Assembly (NCBI GenBank): GCA_030609785.1
Contig: JAUWTC010000049.1
Span: 1-10,263, forward strand
Reading direction: 5' to 3'
DNA: 10,263 nt
From: Holophagae bacterium
GTDB lineage: Bacteria > Acidobacteriota > Thermoanaerobaculia > Thermoanaerobaculales > Sulfomarinibacteraceae
Shown here: piece after piece, positions 4,435 through 10,241 of the stretch
Numbering within the stretch: the stretch's first letter is position 1
Layout: the number at the start of each line of letters is the position of its first letter
Notes under the pieces: generated by a model
Seen by the model: only the letters and a program-made list of their open reading frames with translations
What the model was told of the DNA's origin: nothing
Database searches by the model: none
Program-made: the position numbers and the translations under genes

Positions 4435-4479
4435 CACCCACTCTCCCAACTGATGCGCTTTGCGCATCTATGATGGGTG
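4435..4479. repeat. Nested stem-loop around GATGCGC triloop hairpin, copy A
   Basis: GATGCGC-TTT-GCGCATC (4452-4468) is a perfect 7-bp stem with a three-base loop. It sits inside an outer 6-bp dyad CACCCA (4435-4440) / TGGGTG (4474-4479). The inner stem recurs exactly at 4518-4534. It lies in the gene-free divergent spacer upstream of ffh. Confidence 0.65.
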
Positions 4480-4517
4480 TCATGGTGGTAGCAGCAGCTG
4501 ATTCGAAAACCCCCAGG

Positions 4518-4534
4518 GATGCGCACAGCGCATC
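4518..4534. repeat. GATGCGC triloop hairpin, copy B
   Basis: GATGCGC-ACA-GCGCATC is the same 7-bp stem as at 4452-4468 with a different three-base loop, 66 bp away. Identical arms with a variable loop suggest a small extragenic palindrome family or a repeated protein-binding dyad. No coding sequence overlaps it. Confidence 0.65.
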
Positions 4535-4537
4535 AAA

Positions 4538-5421: not shown

Positions 5422-5457
5422 AGGCTGGAAGGCTGGGAAGCAAGGACGCTAGGACGC
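5420..5457 (+). repeat. Degenerate short tandem repeat after the exported-protein gene
   Basis: GAAGGCTG occurs twice in tandem (5420-5427, 5428-5435), overlapping the TGA stop, and is followed by decayed relatives (GGAAGC, AAGGACGCT, AGGACGC). It directly precedes the three-hairpin element. Confidence 0.6.
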
Positions 5458-5469
5458 AAACGGGAGCGC

Positions 5470-5555
5470 GGGTAGGAACCGGCACCAGGCCGGAGGCCTG
5501 CCGCGGCGAGGCCGTGGGGGCTCCAAAGGAGTCCTGTGCGGGCGTCAAACCCGCA
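5470..5555 (+). repeat. Three-hairpin intergenic element, copy 1
   Basis: Starts with GGGTAGGAACCGGCAC (5470-5485), identical to 10134-10149. Then come hairpins placed almost end to end: CAGGCC-GGA-GGCCTG (5486-5500), CCGCGGC-GAG-GCCGTGG (5501-5517, one G-U pair) and GGCTCC-AAA-GGAGTCC (5519-5534, one bulge). GTGCGGGC (5536-5543) is shared with the other copy. A fourth dyad, TGCGGG/CCCGCA (5537-5542 and 5550-5555), is particular to this copy. The distance from the first shared block to the last is 66 bp, against 65 bp in copy 2. It ends 20 bp before the oxidoreductase ATG, so it lies in that gene's leader if transcription starts upstream. The GTAG at its foot resembles that of REP sequences. 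Confidence 0.75.
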
Positions 5556-5575
5556 TCGTGGGGGGGCTGTAGCTC

Positions 5576-6892
5576 ATGCGTAACGTTGCCGTAGTCGGAG
5601 CGGGCCTGTCGGGTCTGACCGCGGCCTGCCGCCTGGCCCAGGCCGGCCTGAGACCTCAGGTCTTCGAACGCTACCCGGTGCCGGGAGGTCTGGCCCGAGT
5701 GATCGACGTCGGCGGAGAGCCCCTTGAGGTCTTCTACCACCACCTGTTCACCAATGACACGGCGATCACTGCTTTGGCCGAGGAACTGGGCCTCGGAGAC
5801 GACATCGAATGGCTCCCGTCGAAAATGGGTATCTGGACCGGCGGCCGACTCTGGGACTTCGGGACCCCGGCCTCCCTCCTTCGTTTCCAGCCCCTCCCCT
5901 GGTGGGACAAGATTCGTTTCGTCGTTGGGACGCTGCGCCTCCAGCATTCCAACGACCCGATGCCATTTGAAGACGTTACTGCGGCCCGCTGGATTCAGGA
6001 CCATCTGGGAAGCGAGGTCTGGCGTACCGTTTGGGCCCCGCTGCTGAATCAGAAATTTGCCGAAATGTCCGAAGAGGTGGCCATGGTCTGGCTTTGGCGC
6101 AAGATCTGGCTGAGGGGCCGATCCCGATCCTCGAGCGGCATGGGCGAACGCCTGGGCTACATGCGAGGGTCCTTCGCCCGGGTCGCCGAAGGCCTGGCGG
6201 ACGCGATCCGCAGCATGGGGGGATCACTTCACCTGGCCGATCCCGTCAAACGGGTCGACAGGCTCGAGGACGGCAGCTTCGAGATCATCACCAAAGGGGG
6301 CGGCGTCCGCGCGGATACGGTTCTTGCGGCCGTTCCGGTCCCGGACTATCTTGACATCGCCGGCCACATCCTCCAGCCCTCCGAACGGGAGCGGCTGGGA
6401 AACCTTCGGGCAACCGCCGCCCTATGCACACTCCTGGAACTCAACCGATCCTTTATGCCCTATTACTGGCTCAATATTGCTGACGAGACCATGCCCTTCG
6501 GGGGGTTGATCGAACACACCAACTACATCGACCGAAGCCGATACGGCGGAACGCATCTGCTCTACATCTCCAACTACCTTTTCCCCGACCACTCCCTCTT
6601 CGGCGCCAACAAACGGGATGTTATGGACACCTATCTTCCCGGCCTGAAACGAATCAACCCTGCTTTCGACCCCTCCTGGATCGACCAATTACACCACTTC
6701 CGGGCCGACTATGCCCAACCGGTCGTTACTCGGGGCTATCGTGAGCAGATCCCCTCAATGAGAACCCCGATCGACAACCTCTACCTGTGCACGATGGCCC
6801 AAATCTACCCCGAAGACCGGGGCCAGAACTATGCCGTCCAGTACGGCGACCGGGTCGCGAAGCTGATGCTGGAAGATTTTCGGACCGGTTGA
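5576..6892 (+). CDS. FAD-dependent amine-oxidase-family oxidoreductase
   Basis: Flavoprotein of the protoporphyrinogen oxidase/phytoene desaturase-like superfamily; the substrate is unknown. The 438 residues start directly with a Rossmann FAD-binding fold: VVGAGLSGLTAACRLAQAG (GxGxxG at 8-13), acidic E31 ending the second strand, and GGLAR at 37-41 for the flavin. FYHHLFTND (53-61) and the tail MAQIYPEDRGQNYAVQYGDR (407-426), which closes over the flavin, are typical of a bacterial subgroup often found near surface-polysaccharide genes. No signal peptide or membrane segment is evident. The ATG at 5576 has only a G-run (5560-5566) as a possible ribosome site, but it sets the FAD motif at the correct distance. 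It lies between the hairpin element and the palindrome before trxA, so it is probably its own transcription unit. It should not be named HemY/HemG without a close match. Confidence 0.88.
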   Translation: MRNVAVVGAGLSGLTAACRLAQAGLRPQVFERYPVPGGLARVIDVGGEPLEVFYHHLFTNDTAITALAEELGLGDDIEWLPSKMGIWTGGRLWDFGTPASLLRFQPLPWWDKIRFVVGTLRLQHSNDPMPFEDVTAARWIQDHLGSEVWRTVWAPLLNQKFAEMSEEVAMVWLWRKIWLRGRSRSSSGMGERLGYMRGSFARVAEGLADAIRSMGGSLHLADPVKRVDRLEDGSFEIITKGGGVRADTVLAAVPVPDYLDIAGHILQPSERERLGNLRATAALCTLLELNRSFMPYYWLNIADETMPFGGLIEHTNYIDRSRYGGTHLLYISNYLFPDHSLFGANKRDVMDTYLPGLKRINPAFDPSWIDQLHHFRADYAQPVVTRGYREQIPSMRTPIDNLYLCTMAQIYPEDRGQNYAVQYGDRVAKLMLEDFRTG

Positions 6893-6943
6893 GGCCGGAA
6901 ATCGGAAGGTGACGCCGGGTATCCCCTGACGAATGGAGGCGGC

Positions 6944-6967
6944 CCCGAGCCCGAGCTCGGGCTCGGG
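6944..6967. other. 24-bp perfect GC-rich palindrome
   Basis: Two CCCGAG units followed by two CTCGGG units form a perfect palindrome, 51 bp after the oxidoreductase stop. A hairpin would end transcription or act as a barrier, but only TT follows, so it is not a classic intrinsic terminator. Extruded as DNA it could be a binding site. Confidence 0.6.
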
Positions 6968-6972
6968 TTGGC

Positions 6973-7001
6973 GGTACACGCACCGAGTGATTTGGTGTAC
7001 C
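6973..7001 (+). promoter_or_regulatory. GGTACAC/GTGTACC dyad upstream of trxA
   Basis: Perfect 7-bp inverted repeat (6973-6979 and 6995-7001) with 15 bp between the arms, centre-to-centre about two helix turns. A weak -10-like TACCAT (6998-7003) overlaps the right arm. This would suit a dimeric repressor site over the trxA promoter, but the promoter itself is poorly defined. Confidence 0.4.
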
Positions 7002-7007
7002 ATGCGC

Positions 7008-7028
7008 CCGTTGCAAAAAACGGCAACG
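7008..7028 (+). other. Mutually exclusive small hairpins in trxA leader
   Basis: CGTTGC (7009-7014) pairs with GCAACG (7023-7028). Alternatively CCGTT (7008-7012) pairs with AACGG (7019-7023). Both use the same left bases and flank a run of six A. It lies 12 nt before the trxA ribosome site. Confidence 0.4.
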
Positions 7029-7053
7029 CAAAGACCCGCTAAGGAGCATTCAC

Positions 7054-7380
7054 ATGGCAGGAAAAGCAATCGAAATTACCCCGAGCAACTTTGACGATGT
7101 CGTCCTCAAGGCCGACGTTCCCGTCCTGGTGGATTTCTGGGCTGAGTGGTGCATGCCGTGCAAGGCGATCGGTCCGACGGTCGAGCAGATTGCAGACGAG
7201 TACGACGGCCGCGCCGTCGTCGGCAAAATGAACATCGACACGGCTCGGGAAATAGCCTTGAAGTACGACATCCGTGCGATCCCGACTCTCTTCGTTTTCA
7301 AAAACGGCGAGGTTGTCGACAAAGTGGTCGGAGCGGTCGCCAAGTCCAATCTGACCAAAGCCCTCGACGCCGCCCTTTAG
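7054..7380 (+). CDS. trxA: Thioredoxin with WCMPC active site
   Basis: Cytosolic dithiol reductant for ribonucleotide reductase, peroxiredoxins and, through DsbD, the periplasm. It has 108 residues, standard for TrxA. VLVDFWAEWCMPCK holds the redox cysteines C33 and C36 and the buried acid D27. The cis-proline loop AIPT has P77, and the core FKNGEVVDKVVGA matches the family. The position usually held by Gly in WCGPC is Met34, which should shift redox potential or partner choice. AAGGAG at 7041-7046 lies 7 nt before the ATG. hbd follows 22 bp later, so they are probably cotranscribed. A thioredoxin-like protein with another specialised role is possible but the overall sequence is that of ordinary thioredoxin. 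Confidence 0.95.
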   Translation: MAGKAIEITPSNFDDVVLKADVPVLVDFWAEWCMPCKAIGPTVEQIADEYDGRAVVGKMNIDTAREIALKYDIRAIPTLFVFKNGEVVDKVVGAVAKSNLTKALDAAL

Positions 7381-7402
7381 ATCTTCGGCCGAGACCGGCT
7401 CA

Positions 7403-8281
7403 GTGATGAAAACCACTCTCGCCTCTCCGATCGAGCAACTGGGCATCGTTGGCGCCGGCCAAATGGGTGCCGGGATCGCCCAAGTTGCCGCCGTCGCCGG
7501 CTTCGATGTTCTTCTGACCGACATCGACGATGCCGGGCTCGAACGGGCCCTCGAGTCGATCGTCCACGATCTCGACCGGCTCCTCGAAAAGGGTGATCTG
7601 AATCAGGACGAGGTAGCAGCCGCACTCAAACGGATCACGACGTCGACCCACCTCAAGGAACACAGCCGGTGCGATCTGGTGATCGAGTCCGCCATCGAGG
7701 ATTGCGACATCAAGAGGGGCATCCTGCAGCAGTTGGACAATGTCTGCTCGGCAGGCGTCGTCCTGGCAACCAACACCTCATCCCTGTCGATAGCGCGTCT
7801 GGCTTCCGCCACCGGCAGACCCGACCGCGTCATCGGAATGCACTTCATGCTGCCGGTTCCCAGGATGCAACTGATCGAGATCGTCTGCGGCATGGAAACC
7901 TCCACAGAGACCCGCGACCTGTCCGTCGACCTCGCCGGCCGATTGGGCAAGACGCCGGTTGAATGCCGTGACTTCCCGGGCTTTGTCTCCAACCGCCTGC
8001 TGATTCCGATGATCAACGAAGCGGTCTTCGCCGTCTACGAGGGCGTCGCCTCGATCGAGGCAGTCGACCAGATCATGCAGTTGGGGATGAACCATCCGAT
8101 GGGGCCTCTGCGCTTGGCCGATCTGATCGGTCTGGACACCTGTGTCACCGTCATGCGGATGCTCCACGACGGAATGGGCGACCCCAAATACCGGCCGTGT
8201 CCGCTCCTGGTCAAGATGGTCGAGGCCGGCCGCCTCGGTCGCAAGAGCGGCCGGGGGTTCTATGACTACCCGTCGGGCTGA
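7403..8281 (+). CDS. hbd: 3-hydroxyacyl-CoA (3-hydroxybutyryl-CoA) dehydrogenase
   Basis: NAD(P)-dependent oxidation/reduction of 3-hydroxyacyl-CoA and 3-oxoacyl-CoA, used in butyrate-type fermentation, beta-oxidation or PHB metabolism. It has 292 residues, like stand-alone Hbd/PaaH proteins. The N-terminal Rossmann domain has GIVGAGQMGAGIAQ (GxGxxG at 17-22) and D40 after the second strand; TNTSSLSI (123-130) gives the catalytic serine. The catalytic pair is H147 and E159 in GMHFMLPVPRMQLIEIV, with N197 in GFVSNRLLIPMINEA. The C-terminal dimerisation domain shows MGPLRLADLIGLDT and GRKSGRGFYDYPSG. The Asn usual three residues after the catalytic His is Leu150 here. GTG (7403) and the adjacent ATG (7406) are both possible starts; no clear ribosome site separates them. 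It is 22 bp after trxA and overlaps the next gene by 20 bp. Confidence 0.93.
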   Translation: MMKTTLASPIEQLGIVGAGQMGAGIAQVAAVAGFDVLLTDIDDAGLERALESIVHDLDRLLEKGDLNQDEVAAALKRITTSTHLKEHSRCDLVIESAIEDCDIKRGILQQLDNVCSAGVVLATNTSSLSIARLASATGRPDRVIGMHFMLPVPRMQLIEIVCGMETSTETRDLSVDLAGRLGKTPVECRDFPGFVSNRLLIPMINEAVFAVYEGVASIEAVDQIMQLGMNHPMGPLRLADLIGLDTCVTVMRMLHDGMGDPKYRPCPLLVKMVEAGRLGRKSGRGFYDYPSG

Positions 8282-10139
8282 CCATAAGAAGAGTCCCGCT
8301 GGGACCATCATTCTCTGTCAGGCGTGCGGCACACCCAATCCCGTCCACTTCGAGCAGTGCCGTCGGTGCGGCCTTCGGCTCCTGGTGATCTCCGCCGCTC
8401 AAACGGAAGGGGACCCCAGCGAAGAAGCCCAACTCTTCGAGGCACAGGAAGACCTCGAAGAGAACATCCTCGAACGCCTGACCAAGTTGGAAGACGGACT
8501 CCGGAGCCTCTCCGAAGCCCTTGCCGCCTCGGCCGGCCACCTTGGCCAGTTGGAACACAATCTGACGGTCACACACGCGGGCGTTCAAACCCTGACAGCC
8601 CTCCTGGAACAACAAGGCGTCGTGTCGAAATCGGAGATGTTGGAGGACTGGGAGCGGGCCGCGGACGAAGAACTGCACTCCAGGGCGCTTGCCCGCCGCT
8701 TCAGCGACAGGACCCGGCGCATTCTTTCTCAGGCGGTACATTCAGGGATCGACGACCCGGAGTTCCGGCGACGACTGGATGCTCTGAAGGCGACCCTGGT
8801 CCGGGCCGACCTCGGCGAAGGATTGGCCCAGATGACCGACCTGGCCGACCTGACGCCGGGCAACGACGAACTCTGGAGCCTGCTGGGTGAGACCGCCTTC
8901 GAAATGGGAGAGCTGAAGGAGGCGGCCTCAGCCTTCGAGAAGGTCCTCGCCCTCCGAGGACCTCATCTGGAATCCCTGATCTACCTGGGCACCGTCGCCT
9001 CGGACCTTGGCCAATGGGACCGGGCCGAACAGGTTCTTACAGCCGCGAGAGACCTCGACCCCACCGCCTTTCTGCCCGCCTTTACCTTGGGCGCCCTGGC
9101 CGGCATGAAGGGGCAGCCCGAAGAGGCGATAAAGCACCTGGAAACCGCGATTGCCCTGGACCGCGTCCCACAGGCTTACTACCTCCTCGGCGCCAACTCT
9201 CTGGAAATGGGCCGGACAGGAGGTGCCATCGATGCCTTCAAGGAGGCGGTCGCGCTGGCCCCGGATTTCGAAGATGCCCTCTATCAGCTGGGTGTCGCTT
9301 ACCTCCGGCGTGGTTGGTCCAAAAAGGCACTGGAGACCTTTCGGCACGTTCTTCGCCTCGACCCCCGGCGGCTTCGCTATCAAGAAACCGTTCGTCTGTT
9401 CAGCCAGGCCCCCCCAGAGGACCTCCCTGCCGATGCCGCCAAGCTGGCTGGGCGCGCAGGCGCCGCACTGGCGGCCGAACGCCAGGAGTACGCCTTCGAA
9501 CTGTTCTCCCGGGCAGTTTCCGCAGCGCCGGCACACCCACAGCTGAGGGCCACCACGGCTCTGCTGGCCGCAGCGATCGGTCGCAACCGTGCTGCCGTCC
9601 GCCACGCCCATCAGCTCCTCCACCAGGATCGTGCCGATTCGCCCTTCCTGGCTGCCGCGGTCGCGGCCCTCCTGGAGAGTCTCCGCCGGGGCGGTCACAC
9701 CGCCATAGCCCGGCGTTTCGCCCTCCAGTTTTTCTCAGAGAGCGACAATCTTCCGGTGCGGGGCATCGCCGCCTATGAATTCACCCTGATCATCCTGGAC
9801 CTCGACGAGGATCCAACCATTGCCCGGGAGATGGCCCGCGAGGCTCTGGACTTCATGCCCCGGGAACTCATGCACTTCCCCCTGGCGGCGCTGGGGGCCA
9901 TCGCAATCGAGGCGGAACGCTTTCGGGAAGCCCTCCGCTACCTGGAACAGGCGACCGAAAGCACACGAGCGCCCGACGTCATGCGCCTCCTGGGCATTGC
10001 CCGTCTGGGCGCCGGCGACCGGGACGGCGCCCGGAAAGCACTGGAAGTCTCCAGTGAAAATGGTCCCTCCAACCTCCATACCGATTTGATCGGCCGTCTG
10101 CAAAGCCTCAGCGGATTGCTGGAGGAGTTGAAGGGGTAG
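8262..10139 (+). CDS. Zinc-ribbon TPR-repeat protein
   Basis: Likely cytosolic scaffold; the partner is unknown. The ATG at 8262 is the last usable start before the zinc ribbon and overlaps hbd by 20 bp, so translation is probably coupled; a G-rich stretch (8252-8257) is the only ribosome-site candidate. It gives 625 residues. Residues 19-36 form a CxxC-x10-CxxC zinc ribbon (C19, C22, C33, C36). About 55-130 is charged and heptad-like, probably coiled coil. About 195-370 contains a run of at least four TPR motifs (for example LWSLLGETAFEMGELKEAASAFEKVLAL, then YYLLGANSLEMGRTGGAIDAFKEAVALAP and ALYQLGVAYLRRGWSKKALETFRHVLRLDP), and a second helical-repeat region continues to about 620. No signal peptide or membrane helix is seen. 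The stop TAG lies inside the second three-hairpin element. Confidence 0.9.
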   Translation: MTTRRADHKKSPAGTIILCQACGTPNPVHFEQCRRCGLRLLVISAAQTEGDPSEEAQLFEAQEDLEENILERLTKLEDGLRSLSEALAASAGHLGQLEHNLTVTHAGVQTLTALLEQQGVVSKSEMLEDWERAADEELHSRALARRFSDRTRRILSQAVHSGIDDPEFRRRLDALKATLVRADLGEGLAQMTDLADLTPGNDELWSLLGETAFEMGELKEAASAFEKVLALRGPHLESLIYLGTVASDLGQWDRAEQVLTAARDLDPTAFLPAFTLGALAGMKGQPEEAIKHLETAIALDRVPQAYYLLGANSLEMGRTGGAIDAFKEAVALAPDFEDALYQLGVAYLRRGWSKKALETFRHVLRLDPRRLRYQETVRLFSQAPPEDLPADAAKLAGRAGAALAAERQEYAFELFSRAVSAAPAHPQLRATTALLAAAIGRNRAAVRHAHQLLHQDRADSPFLAAAVAALLESLRRGGHTAIARRFALQFFSESDNLPVRGIAAYEFTLIILDLDEDPTIAREMAREALDFMPRELMHFPLAALGAIAIEAERFREALRYLEQATESTRAPDVMRLLGIARLGAGDRDGARKALEVSSENGPSNLHTDLIGRLQSLSGLLEELKG

Positions 10140-10206
10140 GAACCGGCACTCCGGCCAAAGGCCGGTGGAACCGTCAGGTTCCGCATCCAAAGGATGCAGT
10201 GCGGGC
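10134..10206 (+). repeat. Three-hairpin intergenic element, copy 2
   Basis: GGGTAGGAACCGGCAC (10134-10149) overlaps the TAG stop of the TPR gene. Three perfect hairpins follow: CCGGCC-AAA-GGCCGG (10151-10165), GGAACC-GTCA-GGTTCC (10167-10182) and GCATCC-AAA-GGATGC (10183-10197), then GTGCGGGC (10199-10206). The order and spacing match copy 1 at 5470. An alternative fold pairs ACCGGC (10142-10147) with GCCGGT (10161-10166), and GGAACC (10139-10144) can also pair with the right arm of the second hairpin. As it follows a stop codon it could also slow or end transcription, although no T-run follows. Confidence 0.75.
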
Positions 10207-10211
10207 TAGGA

Positions 10212-10241
10212 AGCTGTCAGCTCTCAGCTGTCAGCTCTCAG
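10212..10241 (+). repeat. Heptamer tandem repeat AGCT(G/C)TC
   Basis: Four heptamers alternate AGCTGTC and AGCTCTC (10212-10239), that is two exact 14-bp units, plus AG. It comes right after the second three-hairpin element and is followed by the perfect palindrome CAGGCGCCTG (10244-10253). Its end may lie close to the window edge. Confidence 0.8.

Follow-up and report, generated by a model that had tools for sequence, protein, structure and literature searches.

Repetitive extragenic palindromes (REPs) are extragenic, present in many copies, built as a single palindrome of ~20-40 nt with a conserved GTAG or GTGG foot, and placed so that they flank a cognate Y1 gene. The enzymes concerned, the REP-associated tyrosine transposases (RAYTs, or TnpA_REP), cleave at a CT or CA that is picked out by the foot tetranucleotide (PMC8266576). 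Y1 proteins of class 3 go with atypical structures that bear a CnGA foot; they occur also in Acidobacteria, and their structures are found in high copy, with ~600 in Solibacter usitatus (PMC6006769). CGTC-tagged palindromic repeats have been reported without any transposase association (PMC3733652). Here we compare these systems with a three-hairpin repeat from a Holophagae bacterium (assembly GCA_030609785.1, here G000), two copies of which lie in contig JAUWTC010000049.1 (C424), a stretch of 10,263 nucleotides that was analyzed whole and is called the window below. The repeat occurs, dispersed, in a narrow set of bacteria that have received little study.

The repeat resembles the REPs of RAYT/TnpA_REP systems in being extragenic and multicopy, in its strand-specific hairpin fold, in a 5' tag ending in AG, in its many CT or CA ends, and in its tandem arrangement. 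It differs from them in its length (~65-70 nt), in a four-way junction that holds three hairpins where a REP has one short palindrome, in a tag that is not fixed as GTAG or GTGG, and in that no cognate RAYT, or Y1 gene flanked by units, was found, a negative that covers 30 of 58 Y1 loci and is weakened by the incompleteness of the genomes. With the structures that go with Y1 proteins of class 3 and subclass 2.6 (PMC6006769) it shares a high copy number and, for class 3, an occurrence in Acidobacteria; going by their text description, however, class 3 structures carry a CnGA foot and flank their own gene, whereas the foot here is NNAG and no gene is flanked. The CGTC-tagged repeats (PMC3733652) are likewise REP-like and not tied to transposase genes, but they are single palindromes with a different tag; the tail ATYGTGACG of a second hairpin that encloses some of the units (see below) reads CGTC on the opposite strand. 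The ends of IS200/IS605 elements, single-stranded DNA hairpins beside a short target (in part after PMC6006769), are similar as well; unlike those elements, the unit carries neither tnpA nor tnpB, and the entire element is one fold. The repeat is best read as a REP-like non-autonomous element with an unusual four-way junction. Described REPs are mostly single hairpins, whereas here a covarying four-way junction is kept across the family.

A repeat family with a covarying fold

The first-pass annotation of the window had described a two-copy element with a common start, GGGTAGGAACCGGCAC, a common end, GTGCGGGC, and three hairpins in identical order. All of this was correct, coordinates included, and both copies fold as it had said, with energies of -41.1 and -39.7 kcal/mol and z scores, relative to dinucleotide-shuffled sequences, of -2.4 and -5.3; the element is real, but these are two of many copies and not two. 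The G000 assembly (2.82 Mb, 457 contigs, 79.8% complete) held 21 matches to a strict pattern (reversed control, 0) and 31 to a looser pattern of the ends. A genome-wide search with a covariance model, which the annotation had proposed, likewise returned many more copies: the model (R1), built from 13 copies that all belong to one subfamily, gave 43 hits in G000 at E<=1e-3, fragments counted, spread over 36 contigs. This number is a lower bound: scoring covered 150 of 4017 first-look candidates, and the hits miss 3 of the 31 pattern matches. An absence of further copies and stems that had lost their complementarity were both looked for; neither was found.

Among 99 relatives, with at most 49 candidates scored per genome so that weak copies may escape, R1 matched 8, including all four genomes of the genus (G000 and three others) and, beyond the genus, one genome each of two further genera in the family (G004 and G011). 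G015, which belongs to the same genus as G011, gave no R1 match. Weak single hits in G039 and G069 were distrusted, being judged doubtful by score only. When 396 genomes sampled evenly across the phylum were searched (at most 12 candidates scored per genome), G000 and G011 alone matched at E<=1e-6. The pattern scan of a genome collection, which covered one subfamily only, returned 37 stretches, 33 of them in metagenome-assembled genomes labelled Thermoanaerobaculales or Holophagae; four came from other phyla (Gemmataceae, Pirellulaceae, a gammaproteobacterium, and an acidimicrobiian) and were taken as chance matches, the three-hairpin fold being absent from each of them. Viral contigs gave 0 matches by one pattern and 4 by the other, but no such match forms a closing helix around three hairpins, and copy 2 had no match at E<=1e-3 among plasmid and phage records. 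No paper describing the repeat turned up in the limited literature collection searched, and the two unit-start strings occurred in none.

Copies 1 and 2 of the window belong to different subfamilies. The A-T to C-G difference in hairpin 1, which the annotation had called compensatory, is real but for this reason is not by itself a compensatory event, and covariation had therefore to be shown family-wide. Because the 13-copy alignment varies little, covariation was tested on cores picked by their ends alone (GGAACCGRCRC ... GYGYGGGC), so that structure was not selected for. This pattern found 105 cores in six genomes (reversed pattern, 0); one of them, G011:C62, resembles a chance match and was kept in the 105 and dropped from the 96 distinct cores. 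The minimum-energy fold consisted of exactly three hairpins within a closing helix in 94 of the 105 cores, compared with 64 of 2100 with shuffled interiors. Two closing-helix pairs could be read without a folding program across the 96 distinct cores: position 8 with -5 was AT in 49, GC in 39, GT in 8, and AC in 0, and position 10 with -7 was GC in 61, AT in 34, and AC in 1. Both pair positions change jointly, and in both directions, between subfamilies, with the qualification that the 96 cores are related and the changes are not independent events. End-anchored covariation and the fold test against shuffles support the suggestion that selection acts on the fold. The closing helix also contains a G-G opposition, which is fixed by the search pattern and invariant in the 13-copy alignment.

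The hairpin arms fall into several types that recur in varied combinations. Arms fitted each other better within elements than after permutation (0.885 v 0.711, 0.925 v 0.662, and 0.913 v 0.655), a comparison biased towards the observed value in that the arms were cut from predicted folds. On the plus strand G.T oppositions outnumbered A.C (43 v 17 cells, 28 v 15 distinct; 66 elements from four subfamilies).

An RNA would be expected to prefer GNRA tetraloops. Among 258 hairpins from 86 distinct elements, 205 had C(GNA)G or C(GNNA)G loops. Of the 258, 201 carried triloops, with GNA in 177, and 54 carried tetraloops, with GNNA in 40, of which 8 were GNRA. The loop-closing pair was C-G in 245 of the 258, and GCGAAGC was found in 46 of the 96 distinct cores. 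GNA and GNNA loops on G-C stems have been described as extraordinarily stable DNA mini-hairpins, and GCGAAGC melts at 78 C (PMC4686876). Loop types of this kind, with few GNRA among them, argue for single-stranded DNA as the probable working form of the units, and their match to mini-hairpins known from the test tube would suggest that chromosomes use such DNA-specific folds. No Rfam 15 covariance model matched at the window copies or in eight copy-bearing loci.

Unit ends, insertion sites and stop codons

The foot tetranucleotide was GTAG in 44 of 93 copies, CTAG in 23, GCAG in 8, and another in 18. GTAG, which the annotation had taken as the signature of RAYT enzymes, therefore does not characterize the family; NTAG is present in 70 copies and NNAG in 85, so AG alone is nearly constant. 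The terminal dinucleotide is CT or CA in 62 of the 93 copies, and another unit start follows directly in 23. The left boundary lies after a T, as observed at stop codons; the right boundary, placed mainly from the tandem junctions, may shift by 2-3 nt.

Mobility, which had been raised for the element, is supported by comparison with sister species. At site 1, G000 has an extra 154 nt that hold copy 1, its outer hairpin, and short repeats, and the site is empty in all three sister genomes; further sites are filled in one species and empty in some sisters. This comparison took forward 17 of 28 pieces (those resembling real genes, one of them trimmed). Junctions were read by eye at 7 of 17 sites, with the other 10 known as alignment ranges; 6 of 11 further pieces were also compared, and those omitted were near-duplicates, a spurious frame, and two already examined. 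At site 2, copy 2 begins at the TAG stop of a TPR gene in G000; G001 shares this TAG, there followed by GAATG, and lacks a unit. At the same site G002 carries three units of other types and G003 two, with the final unit incomplete in each genome. Just 3' of the TPR stop in G001 (L284), where G000 has copy 2, there is a hairpin, GTAGGGGCGCACCTGCGTGTGCGCCC, perhaps of another repeat family. At site C372 the G000 unit lies between GGAAACT-type heptamers, and G002 has one heptamer and no unit. No consistent target duplication was observed; TAGGAA flanks the TPR copy, and the closing helix (P2) amounts to a short subterminal inverted repeat.

Units start at the TAG of the upstream gene in 12 of 79 tabulated places. 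At 4 common stop codons the first unit differs between species, the types starting GGAACC, GGGACATCGC, or GGGACCCACGCC. Those starting GGGACATCGC or GGGACCCACGCC end in GCGTGGGC and fall outside R1 (L331, L332, L346, and L351). Uninserted relatives at stop-codon sites end in TAG at 9, TAA at 3, and TGA at 1 of 13 gene ends (7 sites; gene 6 of this comparison was without resolution in three genomes), against a background of TAG at 100 of 394 long open reading frames (ORFs), and the independent sites are too few to prove a preference for TAG. Relative to the upstream gene, 34 units have the same orientation, 10 of them beginning at its stop codon, and 21 have the opposite one. Neighbors and orientation come from a home-made ORF caller: 60 of the 79 places lie outside its gene calls and 19 overlap one, 4 of these being the chance matches from other phyla.

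The search for a mover and the competing explanations

The window had been said to contain no RAYT/TnpA-REP gene, and this extends to the whole G000 assembly, in which the Y1_Tnp profile found no match. The same profile matched 15 of 17 family genomes searched, namely, the carriers G002, G003, and G004 and all 12 non-carriers; three long Y1 frames read in G002 and G003 have 336-346 codons. Hairpins with GTAG or GGAG adjoin some Y1 loci of the family (L104 and L112), an observation made without a control.

With moderate confidence, we regard the family as REP-like, non-autonomous mobile elements of ~70 nt whose working form is folded single-stranded DNA. The plus strand, as read here, folds into the closing helix and three short hairpins of a four-way junction, and the unit AGGAACC...GGGC(T/A) would insert directly 3' of a T, at cut sites that we infer, mostly yielding an NTAG foot. 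If the T is the first base of a stop codon, the AG would come from the unit, presumably brought with it, and the gene would still end in TAG. Units also stand head to tail behind earlier units and inside the loop of the second REP-like hairpin, and an HUH-type (Y1) nuclease or a functional equivalent would probably act in trans. The ~100 natural variants, together with filled and empty sites in sister species, are material for testing the recognition rules of such a mover.

Several observations weigh against this explanation. Three of the six carriers are without a Y1_Tnp match (G000, which is 80% complete, G001, and G011), and G011 is 99% complete and has 10 repeat hits. The unit start occurred in none of the 30 Y1_Tnp loci examined of 58 matches, 5 of the 30 being from carriers. 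Copy 2 has TAGGAA to its left and to its right, which leaves room for a target duplication at this site; we read the left TAGGAA as the unit's own because AGGAACC is constant. C372 is not a clean insertion because extra heptamers accompany the unit. At C251 and at genes 4 and 5 the stop codon of uninserted relatives is TAA or TGA, which means that TAG is not a strict target; these relatives fit insertion 3' of T in which the unit brings the AG, and a point change would serve equally. The G.T excess is modest when counted on distinct events, the first 13-copy alignment has only 1 pair changed on both sides, a count reached by 308 of 500 shuffles, and the GNA loops may be inherited rather than selected.

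A bolder form of the same idea, which we put forward only tentatively, would make the family a separate class of single-stranded DNA mobile elements: a DNA cloverleaf made up of extra-stable GNA/GNNA mini-hairpins, recognized by its four-way junction and not by a single palindrome, inserted 3' of T so that stop codons are preserved as TAG, and diversifying by exchange of whole units at common sites, with an enzyme other than a recognizable Y1 moving it in trans.

It is unlikely that the units are canonical REPs of a RAYT gene that was lost from, or is missing in, the G000 assembly. That assembly is only 80% complete, the foot is NTAG in 70/93 and NNAG in 85/93, the ends (62/93) agree with the dinucleotides that TnpA_REP cuts by way of the foot tetranucleotide (PMC8266576), atypical structures in high copy are documented for Y1 proteins of class 3, as in the ~600 of Solibacter usitatus (PMC6006769), and GTAG or GGAG hairpins lie near the two Y1 loci named above, as observed without a control; yet GTAG is found in only 44 of 93 copies, a four-way junction replaces the single palindrome, and both the 30 Y1 loci lacking a unit start (5 from carriers) and the three carriers lacking a Y1_Tnp match speak against it. 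Passive spread, by slippage, template switching, or gene conversion among existing repeats and with no dedicated enzyme, would account for the tandem units, for the heptamers beside many copies and the extra ones that accompany the unit at C372, for different units at one site in sister species, and for the failure to find an enzyme; we consider it quite unlikely, as sites are filled in one species and empty in sisters, the AG foot is nearly constant, and the 43 hits come from 36 different contigs. A structured RNA spread by other means, whether regulatory, terminator-like, or mRNA-stabilizing, is slightly less likely still, for although the fold covaries strongly, one strand prefers G.T over A.C, and some copies lie directly 3' of a co-oriented gene, Rfam gave no match at the window copies and eight loci, the tetraloops are GNNA and mostly not GNRA, the home-made gene calls put 34 units in the same and 21 in the opposite orientation with 10 of the 34 starting at a stop codon, and some sisters have no unit, or another unit, at the same site.

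The outer hairpin, heptamers and other features of the window

For copy 1 the annotation had the three hairpins right and overlooked an outer stem, GCGGGT/ACCCGC, with a GGAG preceding it. The hairpin GGAGC-GCGGGG...CCCCGC-ATYGTG, or a variant of it, holds copy 1 and 18 other distinct copies in its loop. The outer-stem variants GCGGGG/CCCCGC, GCAGGT/ACCTGC, and GCGGGT/ACCCGC remain paired, and GAGGGG/CCCCGC (C169) is not fully paired. Without a core, the GGAG-tagged hairpin (GGAGCGCGGGGCTCCNGCCCCGCATCGTG, 27 nt) appears in ten forms of 27-28 nt among the loci retrieved, which over-represent copies, and an inverted second hairpin was seen by eye upstream in 6 of 22 rows. The hairpin occurs singly, as inverted pairs, and with cloverleaf units nested in it (window; L004, L012, L014, L015, L021, L039, and L063). 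Its GGAG tag makes it look like a REP in its own right, and it may resemble Pseudomonas REPs.

Heptamer tandem repeats of the AGCTGTC, GGAAACT, and CGTCCAA types border several copies (window 10212-10241; L073, L008, and L064), and heptamers similar to those of the window flank other copies among the rows listed. Heptamers also follow TAG stops that have no unit (G003 gene 2 and G001 gene 5).

Table 1. Positions of the two copies and associated features in the window
Feature	Position	Strand	Detail
Extra stretch at site 1, 154 nt	5422..5575	.	Flanking genes directly adjoin in G001, G002, G003
Outer REP-like hairpin	5463..5560	+	GGAG 5463-5466; stem GCGGGT 5468-5473 with ACCCGC 5549-5554; tail ATCGTG 5555-5560; loop holds copy 1
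Copy 1, foot GTAG	5472..5475	+	Family conserves AG, not GTAG
Copy 1, cloverleaf core unit (AGGAACC...GGGC)	5474..5543	+	
Copy 1, closing helix P2, 5' side (CC-G-GCAC)	5479..5485	+	Partner 5536-5542; G5481 opposite G5540, unpaired
Copy 1, hairpin P3 (CAGGCC-GGA-GGCCTG)	5486..5500	+	Predicted fold
Copy 1, hairpin P4 (CCGCGGC-GAG-GCCGTGG)	5501..5517	+	Predicted fold
Copy 1, hairpin P5 (GGGCTCC-AAA-GGAGTCC)	5518..5534	+	Predicted fold
Copy 1, closing helix P2, 3' side (GTGC-G-GG)	5536..5542	+	
Copy 2, foot	10137..10139	+	TAG stop codon of upstream TPR gene
Copy 2, cloverleaf core unit (AGGAACC...GGGCT)	10138..10207	+	
Copy 2, closing helix P2, 5' side	10143..10149	+	Partner 10199-10205
Copy 2, hairpin P3 (CCGGCC-AAA-GGCCGG)	10151..10165	+	Predicted fold
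Copy 2, hairpin P4 (GGAACC-GTCA-GGTTCC)	10167..10182	+	Predicted fold
Copy 2, hairpin P5 (GCATCC-AAA-GGATGC)	10183..10197	+	Predicted fold
Copy 2, closing helix 3' side and end GTGCGGGC	10199..10206	+	
Heptamer tandem repeat (AGCTGTC/AGCTCTC)	10212..10241	.	Directly 3' of copy 2

The genes of the window are ordinary. On the minus strand are ffh, trmD, and a dsbD-like gene, and on the plus strand are genes for an amine-oxidase-like flavoprotein, a thioredoxin, a 3-hydroxyacyl-CoA dehydrogenase, and the TPR protein. Two adjoining palindromes, GATGCGCTTTGCGCATC and GATGCGCACAGCGCATC, lie at 4451-4535, between ffh and the next gene. Another palindrome, CCCGAGCCCGAGCTCGGGCTCGGG, is located at 6943-6966, 3' of the flavoprotein gene, and like runs are present at two other intergenic sites of G002 (L300 and L308).

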